DNA from: Liolophura sinensis
Taxonomy: Eukaryota; Mollusca; Polyplacophora; Chitonida; Chitonidae
Reading direction: 5' to 3'
Assembly: GCF_032854445.1 (NCBI RefSeq)
Contig: NC_088306.1
Span: 18,075,764-18,139,763 of the forward strand
Length of the DNA: 64,000 bases
Shown: positions 1 through 58,706 of the stretch, piece after piece
How positions within the stretch are numbered: position 1 is the stretch's first letter
Layout of the letters: each line of letters starts with the position of its first letter
Position numbers and translations under genes: made by a program
The notes under the pieces: model-generated
The model's input: only the letters and a program-made list of their open reading frames with translations
What the model was told of the DNA's origin: nothing
Databases searched by the model: none

Positions 1-479
1 ACAGCCTTACCAGACGGCCACTGACTACACTGCAAACAACACAGCCTTACCTGACGGCCGCTGACAAGGCTGTATGACAACACAGCTTTACCCGACGGCC
101 GCTAACAAGGCTGTATGACAACACAGCCTTACCTGACAACTGCTGACAAGGCTGTATACAACACAGTCTTACCTGACAAGGCTGTATGACAGCACAGCCT
201 TACCTGACGGCCGCTGACGAGGCTGTATGACAACACACGCTTACCTGACGGCCGCTGACGAGGCTGTATACAACACAGCCTTACAACCTGAGGTTGTATG
301 ACAACATACCCTTACCTGATGACCGCTGACAAGGCTGTATGCAACACAACCTTACCTGAAAAGGCTGTATGACAACACAGCCTTACCTGACGAGGCTGTA
401 TGACGATACAGCCTTACCTGACGAGGCCATATGACAACACAGCCTTACATGATGAGGCTGTACGACAACATAGCCTTAC
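1..479 (-). repeat. Minisatellite made of PSMD1 5' splice-site copies
   Basis: Units of about 30-42 bp, with the plus-strand core acaacacagccttacctgac followed by ggccgctgacaaggctgtatg or shortened forms, repeat about 13 times up to the left window edge. On the minus strand (the PSMD1 sense strand) most units contain CAGGTAAGG, the same junction as the real exon end at 480. About ten units keep the donor core; others are broken (ttaccagac, ttacccgac, ttacaacctg, ttacatgat). The array lies in the intron directly downstream of the exon at 480-623. Confidence 0.9.
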
Positions 480-3400
480 CTGACAGACATTGATGTAATC
501 AGCTGTGTCTAGGTTCATGTACAGCTTGGTCAGCACTCTTAACACTGTGTTCCTGAACTGACGATTCTGAATCAGGGCCATGCACACTTTGAGACTGTAT
601 GATAGCATGGCATTGATGTCATCCTGAAAGTAGAAATGAGATGCTTGAAGAGTTCATACTCACATATGATGAGCTTGTTAAAAGGTTATTCTCATAAATG
701 AGGAGCTTGTTAAAAGGTCATCCTCACAAACGAGGAAAATCAGAAGCTTGTTAAAAGGTCATCTTGACAAATGAGGAGAATTATTTATTTATTTGATTGG
801 CATTTTATTGGTATTGTACTCAAGAATATTTCACTTATATGATGACCGTCAGCATTATGGTGGGAGAAAACCAGTCAGAGCCCAAAGGGTACCCGGAGGG
901 AGTATTAAATTTATTCACCACAGGTGCACTTACTGATTTGAGGATTGCATTTTCAAACAGATCTATCCTTCTGGTCTCCAGGGCAATACCCACAGCCTAA
1001 ACAAAAAAAAAAAAAAAACATAAACACCAAGTCAAAAAACACACTCATTTTTGTTTGTATTTATTGATGTGATCAAAGAGCCAAGTGCCTGTGGAAAAAG
1101 CAGCACTTCTGCAGAATGAACTAGCGACTGTTCCCACACCTTCTGATTTACTTATTTATTTGATTTTTATTATTATTATTTGACTGCTGTTTTATGCCAG
1201 ACTCAAAAATATTTCAATTACACGAGGACAGCCAGCAGCATGCTGTGAGGTGTTTTGCGTAAACTGTATTTGTGATTTCAACGTCAATGGTTAACTTAAG
1301 GACTACTCTAATTCATCAACCTTTTTGCATATGAAACAGCAACTTTGAGAACAATTTATGCACATTTTTAATATGATATTGGAGACAAAACTACATTGGT
1401 TAGATTGGCCAATTTCAGGGCTTCAAACAAACGTATACAATTATCAGTCTACACTGACTTAAGCCTTCAGAGTAATGAATAAACACCTTGTAAACATGTG
1501 AAACAGTTGAAGAATTACAGTAGCAAGCCTTATGATAAGGTGTTGCTCACTCATCCCCTCAAGATACTAACATATTATAATCAGCTCAATTAAAAAATAT
1601 TGATTGATTGACTGAATGGTGTTTAATGTTGTGATCCAGAATGTTTCACTTATATGACCGCAGCCAAGTTCAGGGGTGGATAAAACCAGAGGGCATAATT
1701 TTCTTCATTTGGCATAGAAACATAATCTTTGTTTTAGAACTCCTTTTCATGTAAACCAGCTGACTGCCACAATACAAATATCTTGGTCATCAATTTGTTA
1801 TTAGGCAAAATACTGTTATGTTAAACTACACTTTATCCTTACTGTACCTGTTTAAACTGCCTGTCGTCAAAACAGCGCTGAAACATCCTGTTGACAATGG
1901 CCTCAAGTCGTGGATCAATCGGCTTTTGTTCATCTTCCTGAGCCTCAGCATTGCTCACCCTCAGTTTGGTGTAGAAGTCTATACACTTAGCTGAAACACA
2001 TCAGGAACACTTATTTATCTGACCAGAGTTTTATACCACAATTCTAGAATTTTTCACTTGCACAATTTTTTTTTTGGTTTAATAATACCTTTAAAAAGTT
2101 AGAGATATCATTTATTTATAAACACATTATACTGTCTATTATAAACATTATATAAATATAAATATAAACATACAAACATTATATTGTCTACTATAAACAC
2201 CACCATGTAAATTCCACTGAAAATCTGCTATGTCACAAGCTTTAGCCACACAAGCAGACTTCTGTCAGTTGTCTGCAACTGTTATGTGCAACTATATCTA
2301 ATGTGCGACAAAATCTGGTAATATAGCAAAACGTGCAATTTTACTTCCTGTTCTTCATAGCTGGTTTAGTAAGAACTCTTCAAACCAGAATATATTATAT
2401 TATCTTGTTCACATTTTTGTTATTCCTAACAAGCTAATCATCCACAAATGATCGTTTTCTTTTGTTTCTGCTTGAAGTCACTCTGATCATTATTAAAAAT
2501 ATGTGTCTGAAGCAGACCAGTTTCTATGCCAACAGATACATATCCAGGTGCAGCCTCACTGAAAAACATTTGGGCGTGTCCTTGTTTAGGATTGAACACC
2601 CATGTTTCAGTTAGACATCAAACATCCTAACCGCGTAATCCTCACATTATGCACGTGCACAGGTATGTTCTTGAAATGCATCAAATACATACTGCATATA
2701 CAGCACCAATATAACATTACATGCAGGTGCCGAAATGTTCACATTACAATTAATCGAATTCGATGGACTCATGAACTTAAAAGGTTACACCAGAAATTTT
2801 TGGCAAGGACTCCATATTCATTAATCAAATCAGATTTTCTCTATTTGCCAATGATAGCTTAAATTATTGTCTAATACTGTACCTGCACGTAACAGTTTTA
2901 GTGGTAAAATGATTATCAAGTTTGAGAAAAGTTATAAAGCAACTGGCATTATATATTGTATGAACTTTATCACAGATTCTGAACCTTAACGTGCACGGAG
3001 AGACTGGTATTTTGTAAAAGGTAACTGTTAGGCATATTTTAAAGTAAATGCCAAAAATCTCCGGTACAGTCTCTTCTATAATGCAATGCCCTCTTTCCAT
3101 AACAACATGTACATGTACATCCCTTACCAATGATTGTTTCCACGTATTCAGATGTATCATTAACATCGAACAGATCACCAGCCCCCAGGGCATATGTCAG
3201 CGATTCCTCAAATGCCCCTAAATGGTAGTAGACCTTTGAGGCAACCAGAGCAGCCAGTTCACGGAATTTAAAGGTCTCATCCTCATACAATACCTCTCTG
3301 AGGAACACAAATCAATCATAATCACTAACTAGATATGTACAGCTAATATTACCACAGTTATTAAGTGTTCTCTGACAAAATTCAGGATTACTAGTAGATA

Positions 3401-27800: not shown

Positions 27801-30800
27801 TGTTAGAAATGACTGTCACATGTATCAGTGCTTAATTCTGTTATTAGTTTGAGACTATTTCTCATGGGAACACCCCGCCTGTCCTTCAAGTCATCACAAA
27901 ATAGTGTTCAGGACATTTTTTTCAAAACAGTTCATAGTATTGGATGGAAAGTTGGAACATGGCTTCTTCACGAGGATTTACAGAGAGTCGGGCTTTCCTT
28001 CAGGCCCATTTGGAGCATTGTAGACAAAATTACAGCCATTTTTGTCCAGATTCAACAGTTTTCTGGAGTTATAGCAAAACACTTCAACATTTTGAATTTA
28101 AACTGCTTAACAGGTTACTGATCAGGTTGAAGATTTCATTCCATTTTGGACAAAACTACGTCTTTGATCTTTCACTTACAGATCAAGGTTGAGGCTATTT
28201 TATCACTTTTCCAAAAAATTAGGGCCTTTTTGTTTTCATTCAAAAAGCGGTACATGTACTTCAAAAATGTTTGTATAAACTTTAGTGTTTGTTAAAATGG
28301 TCATACATGGGAAGGTCTTCCAGCAGCCTGCGCATTGGTGTGGGCTTCCCCCCTGGATTGTCTAGTTGTTGTCGTATAAGTAAAATATTCTTGAGCAGAT
28401 GTATGGTGTAAAACTCTAATCAGATAAATAAATAAATAAATCTTTGTTAAAATGCCCATTAGTGAATCTGGTCCTTGTATGTAGTTGAAAATGGTCAGCC
28501 CAGAGACTTATAAACTGAGCAATACAAAAATCAGTGAATGTTATGTTTCCCCTTAACATGTCTACTTCTGTGTCTCTGTGGATTCGGAAACCTGCGTGGG
28601 AACATGGAATTCTGGGATGCTAAGAAACACCGTCTGATTTGTCAAATGCGAGCAGAAGATACCACGTTCTTCTCCTGGTGCCCCGACGGAGAGCATGTTG
28701 TCACAGCAACCTTGGCTCCAAGGTTACGGGTAGGAAATGGGTAAGCTGATATTTGAAGTGACAATCAAATAAAATGTTATATACTAGAACAAACAAGATT
28801 AAAAAAAAAAATCACGAGAATAAAAAGCTCATTGACATTGTGTTTTAACTGATGATGTTTATAACTCCTCCACAGGCACAAGATTCAACACTTTTAACTG
28901 ATGATCTTTATATACTCTCCACAGGCACAAGATTTGACACTTGTAACTGATGATCTTTATATACTCTCCACAGGCACAAGATTTGACACTTGTAACTGAT
29001 GATCTTTATATACTCTCCACAGGCACAAGATTTGACACTTGTAACTGATGATCTTTATATACTCTCCACAGGCACAAGATTTGACACTTGTAACTGATGA
29101 TCTTTATATACTCTCCACAGGCACAAGATTCGACACTTGTAACTGATGATCTTTATAACTCCTCAACAGGAACAAGATTTGACACTTGTGACATAATCTT
29201 TATAACCTCTCCACAGGCAGAAGATTCAACACTTATAACGGATGATTTTCACAGGCACAAGATTTGACACTTGTAACTGATGATCTTTATATCCTCGCCA
29301 CAGGCACAAGATTCGACACTTGTAACTGATGATCTTTATGACCCCTCCACAGACACAAGATTTGACACTTGTAACTGATGATCTTTATAACCCCTCCACA
29401 GGCGCAAGATTCGACACTTGTAACTGATGATCTTTATAACCCCCCCCCCCCCACAGACACAAGATTTGACACATGTAACTGATGATCTTTATAACCCCTC
29501 CACAGGCACAAGATTCGACACTTGTAACTGATGATCTTTATAACCTCTCCACAGGCACAAGATTCGACACTTTTAACTGATGGTCTTTATGACCCCTCCA
29601 CAGACACAAGATTTGACACTTGTAACTGATGATTTTTATGACCCCTCCACAGACAGTAGATTTGACACTTGTAACTGATGAACTTTATAACTCCTCCACA
29701 GGCACAAGATTCTACACTTGTAACTGATGATCTTTATGACCCCTCCACAGACCCAAGATTTGACACTTGTAACTGATGATCTTTATGACCCCTCCACAGA
29801 CACTAGATTTGATACTTGTAACTGATGATCTCTATAACCCCTCCAAAGGCACAAGATTTGACACTTGTAACTGATAATCTTTGTAACCTCTCCACAGACA
29901 CAAGATTCAACACTTGTAACTGATGATCTTTATAACCCCTTGACAGATACAAGATCCGGTACTGCACAAGCTCTCTGTTATCTCATAGCTCATGATCTGT
30001 ATAACCCCTCCACAGATACAAGATCCGGTACTACACAAGCTGTCTGTTATCTCATAGCTCATGATCTGTATAACCCTTCCACAGATACAAGATCTGGCAC
30101 TACACAGGTTGTCTACTACACCATGAGAAGGTTCCATCAGATCAGGCACTGTGGCAGGTTATGTGGCAGCCAGTCCCAGGTGGAGTCTTCAAACAACAGC
30201 CAACCAAATACAAACCCATCGATAGCTCTCTTGTGCCTACAGAAGGTTAGTTTTTTTGTGTACCTGTACACAGTATGTGAAAAACCTAAATCCATGATGT
30301 CTCGTTGAATGTTGTATTTTAGGCCAGTTAAATTGTTCTAATTTTAAAGATAAAGGGTCATTCCATTGTTTCCTGTTTTGAATAAGTGAGCTGAAACCAT
30401 TTTAATTTGCAACAGTGTACGAGACATAAAGCAGACAAATGCTGATCCCATAGCCTTCTCAGACTTGAAATGTATATTTGATATATCTTGCTTGTGTTAT
30501 GTGCACATCATGCTTGTGTTATGTGCACATCATGCTTGTGTTATGCCCACATCATGCTTGTGTTATGGGCACATCTTGCTTGTGTTATGTGCACATCTTG
30601 CTTGTGTTATGTGCACATCTTGCTTGTGTTATGCCACATCTTGCTTGTGTTATGTGCACATCTTGCTTGTGTTATGTGCACATCTTGCTTGTGTTGTGTG
30701 CACATCTTGCTTGTGTTACGCGCACATCTTGCTTGTGTTACGCACACATCTTGCTTGTGTTATATACACATCTTGCTTGTGTTATGCTCACATCTTGCTT

Positions 30801-33800
30801 GCGCCATGCGCACATCTTGCTTGTGTCATGCGCACATCTTGCTTGTGTTATGTGCACATTTTGCTTGTTACATACACATCTTGCTTGTGTTATGTGCACA
30901 TCTTGTTTGTGTTATGTGCACATCTTGCTTGTGTTGCTTGCACATCTTGCTTGTGTTATGCACACATCTTGCTTGTGTTATATACACATCTTGCTTGTGT
31001 TATGCTCACATCTTGCTTGCGCCATGCGCACATCTTGCTTGTGTCATGCGCACATCTTGCTTGTGTTATGTGCACATCTTGCTTGTTACATACACATCTT
31101 GCTTGTGTTATGTGTACATCTTGCTTGTTACATACACATCTTGCTTTTGTTATGTGCACATCTTGCTTGTGTTATGTGCAATTCTGCAATTCTGATCATC
31201 GCTGTATTTTATGCACACAAAGTTTTAATGCAAGAAAATGTATGTGCAATTTTTCCTCCTTGAGAAAATGATTATCCTTTCGCCATTTGATGTTTCCACT
31301 GTTGAGGAGAAGTGACAGAACATGGCTGTGAGGGGCAAATATTTTTCTTATAGCAATCAAGACACTCCAGAAATTAATAAGTATGGAATTAAAGGTGCAG
31401 TCCTATGTGAGAGAATCAATGTTGAGTCCTGATCAGGGGTTGTACTTAAGATGTAACATATTCTGTCATGATAATTCGGAGTATCCAGTGTTTGACAAGA
31501 AGAATTAGTGTGCAGCCCATAGCAGGAGATTATAATTATAGCCCTGATTATAGTTGCATTCAGCAGAAATTGATAGGCTAATTACTGGCTGATCCAGTAT
31601 CCATATACCCAATTTTGTGACAGGGTAGAGTTTTATGCAAAAAAATAACAATTTTGTGACAGGGTAGAGTTTTATGCTTGGTATCGTCAGCATGGCATTG
31701 CTGTGGGGTAGCACCTGAAACATGTCCCAATGTTACATGACTGTGGTTAGTGTGAAGTAATGTTGAAAGCAGACTAGAGTTTAGAGAAAGCCCAAACTTT
31801 ACTAGGTATTAAATGTATACATTAGTTATTTCATAGAACTGTGTTTCTTGGTTGATAGCAAAGACAGAAGCTTATCGTGCCCCGATGTCTAAAGGTAGAC
31901 CTAGTCAACCTCTCCACACATACGAGCCTGCGTCTAACGCTAAGCCGGCACAGAATCCAGAAAACATGTCCAAGGCAGCACTAAAAAACAAGAAGAAGAG
32001 AGAGGCTAGAAAGGCCAAGCAGGAAGAGGTATGTCAAGGGCAATAACTGATTACTTACAATGGTGGAGGAGATGTGTGGTCTGAGAGTTTTCTGTTAAGA
32101 TATGAGAAAAGCCTTGGCTTATAATTTACTGCATCAAGCAGGCCAAGGGTAATGGTAGCAAGCTTGTAGCTCACTTCTAGCACACAATTTGGAAAGTTTT
32201 GCAATACTCCAGGCAAGCTACCGTAATTTTACCGTAGCATTAATATTACCGAACATTGAAATGTCTTTGTGTTCAGAGATACAACTTGTGCGATTGGGTA
32301 AGGAATCTATTATAACATATTTTTAACATATTTTCTCAGGAGGCAGGTGCAGAAAGGGCAGAAGTTCCGCCCACATCTCAAGGCTCCTCCCAGGGGGCAG
32401 GATTTGTCATACCATCCACAGGCAACCCAGAGATTGATAAGAAAATTAAAAACCTTGTAAAGGTGAGGTTTAATAACGAACTTGTGAAGCGTGTGTTTTT
32501 TCGGCGGAACCAATCAAAGGCTTTATTTGACTCTAGGTAACAGTTTGAGAAAATGTTTTTGGTTTCATAGTGAAGATGCTATGTGTAACAGCTTGTATGT
32601 ACCGATACCGAAGTGAAAACTAATATATCTGATATTCTATATCATTTCTAAGAGGACTATGGATAAAGAAGTCAGCGTTTGAAAGATTATCATGAAGTTG
32701 TTAGCCATGATGCGGAAAATGTGGAGGCTCACTTTGACAGGCGCTTGTTCAGTAAGGTCACAAGTTCAAATCCAGCTCTTGCTGTTTCAGCTGCGGCTTA
32801 AAATCTGGAGGTTTGTCAGGTACCAGGCATAGGTCGGTAGGCTGGTCCAGGCATTGTGGTTTCCCATAAAGCTGATTGCTGTCGTATAAGTGAAGAGTTA
32901 TTAAGGAAGGTGTTAAACTTCCTTGCAATTTTTTTGCATAATGAGCAGTCTCTTTGTGATGTATTAAAAATGCTGTGAAAAGTAAATAATCTGGTTTAAA
33001 ATTGTTTTTTTTTTCCCTTCAGAAATTACAACAAATTGAAAAGTTAAAGGAGCAGCAAAGGGAAGGAAAAACACTGGAGAAAAATCAGGTTAGTTTTTAT
33101 GTTTATTTTACAGGATTATCTTCAGCTCAGGTTTATGTGATCTCACTGACCAAGTGGTCTAAAGTGTTTTAATTGAGACAGCTAGCCATTTCATATCCAG
33201 ACTAAGGTGGATGATGTCAGTTTCAAAATATGTTCTTATAATTGACTGTAATTGCATTTGGCCGTTTTTCATAAATATTTTGGGGGGCCTCCGTGGCTCA
33301 GTCGGTTAGCGCGCTAGCGCAGCGTAGTGACCCAGAAGCCTCTCACCAATGCGGTCGCTGTGAGTTCAAGACCAGCTCATGCTGGCTTCCTCTCCGGCCG
33401 TACGTGGGAAGGTCTGCCAGCAACCTGCGGATGGTCGTGGGTTTCCGCCGGGCTCTGCCCGGTTTCCACCCACCATAATGCTGGCCGCCGTCGTATAAGT
33501 GAAATATTCTTGAGCACGGCGTAAAACACCAATCAAAAAAAAAAAAAAAAAAAAAAAATAAATAAATATTTTGATTTGCTCCCACTGTAATGCTGGTTGC
33601 CATCGTACAAGAGAACTATTTTTGAGTATGGTGTAAAACACCAATCAAAAAAATCAATAAATATTTAGATGTAGCTTGGTAAGACTTGCAATCAAATATT
33701 TATTTATTTGATTTATTTGATTGATGTTTTTACGCCGTACTCAAGAATATTTCACTTACATGACAGCGGCCAGCATTATGGTGGGAGGAAACCGGGCAGA

Positions 33801-57339: not shown

Positions 57340-57884
57340 ACTTCAATTGACCTGGCGATCTTATGACAATTTTCAAAACTAAATCCTTCAGACGGTAACA
57401 TCCCTCGTTGACTGGCTAACTACTCCCGACGTAAGGGAAAATCCATTGATTCGGATAAAGCAGAAGAATTCCGCCAACTTGGTTCAAACCAAATCTCGTT
57501 ACATCCCGGGTGATTCAAACCCATAACCCAACCAAGATAATTGCAAAATAAGGACGCGGACTTCTTTTTAAATAAAACATATGCAGATAGTAAACAGAAT
57601 AAATAAAGACCACTTGATTTCATTTATAGTCTAGGTGTTATATATAGTATGTTAATGACAGTTATATACGTTATAAATATTTAACGCTTTCTTTTTTTAA
57701 CTCCGTTTTCATATTTTCCACGATCTGTCTGTTGCCTCTTGTTAAGCTCTACCAGAATCAGCAATCACTTGATGTCACCACTTCACACAAGCTTTACACA
57801 CTTTCTTTCAGCAAACATTGTTTCTTTCAGTATTGTGTACCAGAATTTTGTTTGCACTTGCTAGAATTTTCATCTGTTTTCAAA
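57340..57884. promoter_or_regulatory. Divergent promoter region CENPI/IMPA1
   Basis: 545 bp between the start codons of CENPI (minus) and IMPA1 (plus), free of recognised repeats. It must hold both promoters unless an upstream non-coding exon exists. Confidence 0.55.
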
Positions 57885-58706
57885 ATGGCTGCAGATATGG
57901 CGAAGATTTATGAGGTAGCCGTGAAGATAGCCAAAGATGCCGGCGGTATGATCCGAGAGGCATTCCGCTTAGACCAAGTGATCCAAACGAAAGAGGGGGC
58001 CATGGACTTAGTGACTGAAACTGATCAAAATGTCGAAAAATATATCACAGATATGGTAGAAGAAAGCTTTCCCACCCATTCTTTCATTGGAGAAGAATCT
58101 GTGGCTGCTGGGAAGAAGTGTGAATTAACAGATAATCCCACGTGGATAGTTGACCCCATAGATGGAACAACCAATTTTGTGCATAGATTTCCATTTGTGG
58201 CAGTCTCCATTGCAGTAGCCGTAAATAAAGATATAGAAATAGGAGTTGTCTACAACCCTATACAAGACCAGCTGTATACAGCAAGAAAAGGCCAAGGAGC
58301 ATTTGTCAATGGGAAGCCATTAAAAGTTTCTGGGAAAGAAAATTTGGGCGAAGCATTGCTGCTAGGAGAATTTGGTGCTGACAGGAATCCAGAAAACTTT
58401 AAGACCAAAATGGACAATTTCCATAAAATCATGCTCCAGGCTCGAGGAATGAGAAGTTTAGGGTCGGCAGCACTGAACATGTGCATGATCGCTTCAGGAG
58501 TCAATGACGGCTATATTGAATATGGAATACATATTTGGGATATAGCAGCAGGGTACCTTATCCTTCGTGAAGCTGGGGGTGTGGTCTTAGACCCCAGCGG
58601 GGATGCTGTGGATCTCTGCAGTCGTTCGGTTTTGTGCGGGTCGACAGACAAACTGTGTCGAGAGATTGCCAGTAAAGTAAATCATGTTCGTTACGAAAGG
58701 GACTAG
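57885..58706 (+). CDS. IMPA1: Inositol monophosphatase 1, intronless CDS
   Basis: It hydrolyses inositol monophosphates to free myo-inositol in the cytosol, needs Mg2+, and in this family is inhibited by lithium. The frame is a single 273-codon exon; human IMPA1 has 277 residues and a multi-exon gene. The metal-binding motifs are intact: E70 in GEES; D90, D93 and T95 in WIVDPIDGTTNF; and D219 in WDIAAGYLILREAGG. The start MAADMAKIYE at 57885 was chosen because it matches the family length. An in-frame ATG at 57732 would add 51 residues without family features, though the frame is open. No poly(A) remnant or flanking duplication is visible, so a recent retrocopy is not supported. The gene is divergent from CENPI. 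Confidence 0.96.
   Translation: MAADMAKIYEVAVKIAKDAGGMIREAFRLDQVIQTKEGAMDLVTETDQNVEKYITDMVEESFPTHSFIGEESVAAGKKCELTDNPTWIVDPIDGTTNFVHRFPFVAVSIAVAVNKDIEIGVVYNPIQDQLYTARKGQGAFVNGKPLKVSGKENLGEALLLGEFGADRNPENFKTKMDNFHKIMLQARGMRSLGSAALNMCMIASGVNDGYIEYGIHIWDIAAGYLILREAGGVVLDPSGDAVDLCSRSVLCGSTDKLCREIASKVNHVRYERD

Follow-up and report, generated by a model that had tools for sequence, protein, structure and literature searches.

A mirage minisatellite copied from the 3' splice site of an EIF2A exon in the chiton Liolophura sinensis, and the occurrence of similar arrays in its genome

One intron of the EIF2A gene of the chiton Liolophura sinensis is filled with tandem repeats that carry copies of the intron's own acceptor. 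How did such an array arise, and is it peculiar to this gene? The intron lies in a window of 64,000 nucleotides (NC_088306.1, positions 18,075,764 to 18,139,763, forward strand), and window positions are counted from the first letter of this stretch. The upstream exon (28565..28740, plus strand, 64% in tblastn to human EIF2A) ends in phase 1 with the residues RLRVGNG and is followed by the donor GG/GTAAGC at 28741. Almost all of the following 1344-bp intron (28741..30084, plus strand) is tandem array, the non-array part comprising about 105 bp. The next exon (30085..30245, plus strand), which opens with YKIWHYTGCLLHHEKVPSDQALWQVMWQP, is bordered by the acceptor CCACAG/ATACAAG and the donor GAAG/GTTAGT; its peptide YKIWHYTG... 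matches human eIF2A (8dys_A, E 7e-12), and 13 other EIF2A exons were found in order around it. Homology thus confirms the gene named in the original prediction, while the number given to the exon, 13, is plausible, as 12 exons were detected as far as this one and a first exon would have escaped detection. In the array intron, neither an Rfam family nor inverted repeats were detected. The next EIF2A intron contains an array of its own (window 30485-31180, 32 copies of 22 bp), which is open in three frames; these ORFs of 237-293 codons are probably not coding. Elsewhere in the window, a 352-codon open frame (57648-58706, plus strand) resembles an intronless inositol monophosphatase gene, as judged by eye only.

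Two overlapping arrays were detected by TRF, one of 49-bp units at 28846-29955 (22.8 copies, 86% match) and one of 69-bp units at 29923-30114 (2.8 copies, 91% match). Together they provide exactly 24 decoy acceptors, where about 24 had been predicted: 22 units of about 49 bp are followed by two of 69 bp, and the first exon-like bases of the decoys range from 28876 to 30016. The array was found where it had been placed, but single positions were off by one or two bases, the last two decoys starting at 29947 and 30016 and the true exon at 30085. Each unit consists of the intron's own 3' splice site and 17-33 nt copied from the start of the following exon. The mostly 49-bp units (28846..29946, plus strand), which we delimited by TRF and a unit-by-unit table, contain in this order a branch-point-like CTGAT, a weak pyrimidine tract, CACAG and about 17 nt resembling the exon start. 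The units were correctly described as copied from the 3' splice site of this exon, but in the 49-bp units the copied exon start is limited to these 17 nt or so. The first 69-bp unit (29947..30015, plus strand) begins with the exon-like bases that follow the decoy acceptor whose last base is 29946 and reaches the decoy acceptor ending at 30015; the second (30016..30084, plus strand) begins behind the latter and ends in the true acceptor. Compared with the true junction, decoy 29947 is identical at 21 of 26 positions on the intron side and 29 of 40 on the exon side, decoy 30016 at 25 of 26 and 31 of 40, respectively. Inner units reach 14-21 of 40 exon positions. The units adjoining the exon are thus the most exon-like ones and are set apart from the homogenised inner units, among which adjacent units at 28925-29072 are nearly identical, a mark of recent turnover.

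Since the inner 49-bp units match only 9-13 of 16 exon bases, an unrelated intronic minisatellite might by chance resemble a splice site. This is contradicted by the close match of the last two units on both sides of the junction as well as by a strict junction-copy test, in which 16 exon and 20 intron bases were compared and at least 26 of the 36, including at least 10 of the 16 in the exon part, had to be identical. This 36-mer test practically never matches non-self introns: 49 matches were obtained in 10,982 non-self comparisons, and those inspected were overlapping loci of one gene, so that a junction match is not due to chance. A fortuitous resemblance can hence be given practically no credence. 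The peptide YKIWHYTG is conserved and the same in human, indicating that the exon gave rise to the array and not the reverse, and a genome search found the repeat unit at one locus only.

Alternatively the array might be an artefact of assembly or of collapsed haplotypes, because it is known from a single assembly whose mitochondrial contig is a concatemer, making a mis-assembly of repeats possible. This contig, C99 (L002-L007, L009), contains seven head-to-tail copies of COX1 at intervals of about 15.5 kb. The mitochondrial gene order nad3-nad2-cox1-cox2 and the use of AGA as serine agree with a mollusc; a search for the GFP family, taken as a marker of amphioxus, gave no match, a negative of little weight. 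However, most EIF2A units differ from one another, and the HiFi reads average 8.3 kb (PMC11068029), compared with 1.2 kb for the array. We regard an artefact as extremely improbable.

A second array is found at the edge of the window. The PSMD1 exon at 480..623 (minus strand, 67% in tblastn to human PSMD1) ends in the donor TGTCAG/GTAAGG, which is copied in an array of 31/41-bp units with CAG/GTAAGG (1..479, minus strand) running past the window into L079. Of its 17 decoy donors, 15 kept the GT. It had been described as mirroring the EIF2A array by copying a donor, and it is indeed a donor-side analogue, but the exon contributes only 4-9 nt to the unit. On the other side of this exon a 32-bp tandem repeat (window 654-781), ending about 30 bp before the exon boundary at 623, copies a branch-point-like TTTTAAC stretch without an acceptor.

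The original prediction saw in the two arrays two independent genes with an amplified splice junction. That these two genes are a special case is not supported, because the arrays belong to a known kind of minisatellite, the mirages (PMC3087553), and such arrays are widespread in this genome. Mirage minisatellites are known from amphioxus Adh3 and the globins BflGb6 and BflGb9 (PMC3087553); PGBD5 and troponin C of amphioxus carry them, too (PMC3902484). The chiton arrays share with them the tandem copies of an exon/intron boundary, 5' or 3', in the adjacent intron, the AG or GT signals in most copies, units within 10-160 bp and the distinction between boundary units and homogenised inner ones. 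The EIF2A structure is a mirage minisatellite.

To estimate the frequency of mirages, we sampled 60 exons that matched one of two Pfam families (CCT chaperonins or myosin heads) and 40 kinesin exons, the latter at 285 bp per edge; all 100 were picked by score and blind to repeats. By the strict junction-copy test, five of these unselected exons (95% interval 1.6-11%) had a mirage, mostly at the donor: three CCT exons (L024, L032 and L035) and one myosin exon (L065) at donors, and one kinesin exon (K5) at the acceptor. A further clear mirage with 17 copies was found at the myosin exon C12:684214, and L073, with 8 exon nt, is a weak case. An acceptor mirage at L033 was dropped, since its HMM match extended into an array that only abuts the acceptor. 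Two different mirages in one gene were seen twice, in the CCT gene at C8:53.40 Mb (L024, L032) and in the myosin gene at C12:0.68 Mb (L065, L058); mirages are thus possibly clustered by gene, though the sample is small. With about 1 in 20 sampled exons carrying one, mirages look like a common and mostly neutral accident of the DNA, one that splicing would have to ignore.

The decoys in these genes are of different kinds. The decoy copies of L035 are identical to the true junction at all 36 positions. At L024 (C8:53405971-53406162, minus strand) the reading frame continues beyond the true donor for 432 nt without a stop, and read-through to the in-frame decoy donors would insert repeats of a 22-amino-acid block. 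The myosin exon C12:684214-684339 (minus strand, in L058) has a strong true donor, GTGAGT, with G at +3; 16 of its 17 decoys have a pyrimidine at this position and only the last one reads GTGAGT. Comparing EIF2A, L024 and the C12 myosin exon, the fate of decoys differs by gene, and they share no sign of being either favoured or disfavoured by selection.

In EIF2A the AG is intact in 24 of 24 decoys. On a home-made matrix of 85 heuristically picked acceptors of this genome, which serves as a rough guide only, the true acceptor is weak (6th percentile) and is outscored by 15 of the 24 decoys. Splicing to any of the decoys would bring in a stop after 2-16 codons; for acceptor 30016 the predicted addition of 69 bp with an in-frame TGA was borne out, the TGA being located at 30062 (codon 16). 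These properties would be expected if the decoys were functional, upstream acceptor use putting a stop into the EIF2A mRNA and lowering EIF2A output like a poison exon switch. However, AT-rich, out-of-frame unit copies give stops anyway and the copies are not independent, and since invariant neighbouring column pairs make up 19% of the unit, the intact AG is unremarkable. The open frame behind the L024 donor furthermore argues against poisoning as a general property, and in amphioxus RT-PCR showed normal splicing (PMC3087553). A regulatory role of the decoys is therefore very unlikely in our view.

The breakpoints of the units bear on the origin of the arrays. In the majority of the sampled mirages the same piece of the exon (44, 16, 93, 23 or 8 nt) is present in nearly every copy, as would be expected after a single founding duplication; in EIF2A and PSMD1 this piece varies more. 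Between genes, the exonic share varies freely from 8 to 93 nt, and the exonic fraction of the unit, ranging from 0.22 to 0.86, is not different from uniform (KS P 0.70, n=9), indicating that the position of the splice site does not determine where the units break. Such a spread is compatible with DNA slippage or unequal exchange; it speaks against reverse splicing and against any other RNA step that cuts at the junction.

Do exon edges nevertheless attract such duplications more often than chance? The comparison of exon-edge overlap with chance, asked for in the original prediction, was run in part. Under a naive null, in which arrays fall uniformly anywhere in 1.5-kb flanks, four donor arrays overlapped an exon vs 0.56 expected, a 7-fold excess (P 0.003). 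Uniform placement had to be replaced, as many introns prove short once the array is subtracted, and a random duplication will for this reason often touch an edge; in the EIF2A intron without its array, a random 49-bp seed has a chance of 0.44 of doing so. Under a null aware of intron length, for which pre-expansion lengths were estimated manually and in which the genes of the window form the discovery set, 5 of 10 arrays were at an edge vs 2.2 expected, about 2-fold (P 0.036). Restricted to the unselected introns, the values were 3 of 4 vs 1.1 (P 0.056). An annotation-free count was made of three strong donors with minisatellite-like spacing, the reversed motif serving as control. Genome-wide there were 4284 such triple-donor arrays vs 1170 for the reversed motif (3.7 times), while single donor motifs numbered 105,692 vs 68,789 (1.54 times), so that the triple-donor arrays exceed what motif abundance predicts by a factor of about 2.4. 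A preferential placement of minisatellites in gene-rich DNA could account for this excess. These whole-genome match ratios take the place of a count of array loci with donors, 15 in 3.8 Mb vs 12 in 40.5 Mb; the apparent 13-fold excess in that count was discarded because the same 3.8 Mb contain 4 control loci.

The overlap and motif excesses might mean that amplification is directed to junctions, exon edges favouring junction-spanning duplications through transcription- or splicing-linked breakage, R-loops or an RNA intermediate. On the other side, the unselected introns taken alone exceed P 0.05, the breakpoints are spread and do not coincide with the junction, a concentration of minisatellites in genes would likewise raise the number of donor-bearing arrays, and 15 vs 4 array loci listed in the same 3.8 Mb of C1 is a modest excess. 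Directed amplification is thus unlikely, and the excess of junction overlap, about twofold over random seeding, is small and not proven. The wider proposal that exon edges are a hot spot of tandem duplication, that thousands of genes contain identical competing sites and that the outermost is picked by a rule other than strength, we consider unlikely.

We therefore favour with good confidence a neutral tandem duplication spanning the junction, followed by repeat expansion, as the best explanation of the EIF2A array. A tandem duplication by slippage or unequal exchange would by chance have spanned the intron/exon junction of a then-short intron of about 140 bp. One junction copy would still have been used as the true acceptor, the other having become intronic and free to diverge; as such a duplication leaves one good junction, it could drift to fixation like an intronic one. 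Ordinary repeat turnover may then have expanded the intronic copy to 24. The array would be tolerated, the spliceosome still picking the outermost junction, probably via exon definition from the intact exon and not by site strength; that splicing occurs at the outermost site we infer from the conservation of the exon. The same process may recur across the chiton genome at donors and acceptors. Against neutral duplication we count the roughly twofold excess at edges and the motif ratios of 3.7 vs 1.54, and splicing fidelity is assumed in it.

Compared with amphioxus, the host is a mollusc and not a cephalochordate, EIF2A has 24 copies where the amphioxus globin case has 3-6, and mirages occur in about 5% of sampled exons, the chiton being known here from the sequence of one assembly. 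A literature search, which missed most subscription journals, found no report of mirages outside amphioxus. In the Rogers model, in which introns are gained by tandem genomic duplication (potato RdRp, PMC4974935), the process reportedly likewise starts with a duplication carrying splice signals; unlike there, the EIF2A intron pre-existed and we found no new intron position. In C. elegans, CeRep25B and further minisatellites near alternative exons are also intronic and a link to splice choice was proposed for them (PMC4039745), but these units are dispersed families with regulatory motifs, whereas the chiton units copy the adjacent junction.

Mirages, formerly a curiosity of few amphioxus genes, are thus not special to cephalochordates but frequent in a mollusc. 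The chiton arrays represent many natural experiments in which a single intron offers several to more than 20 near-identical splice sites in competition. They bear on the question how the right splice site is chosen, the decoys being equal to the true site in L035 and better by matrix in EIF2A, and on whether such arrays feed intron gain.
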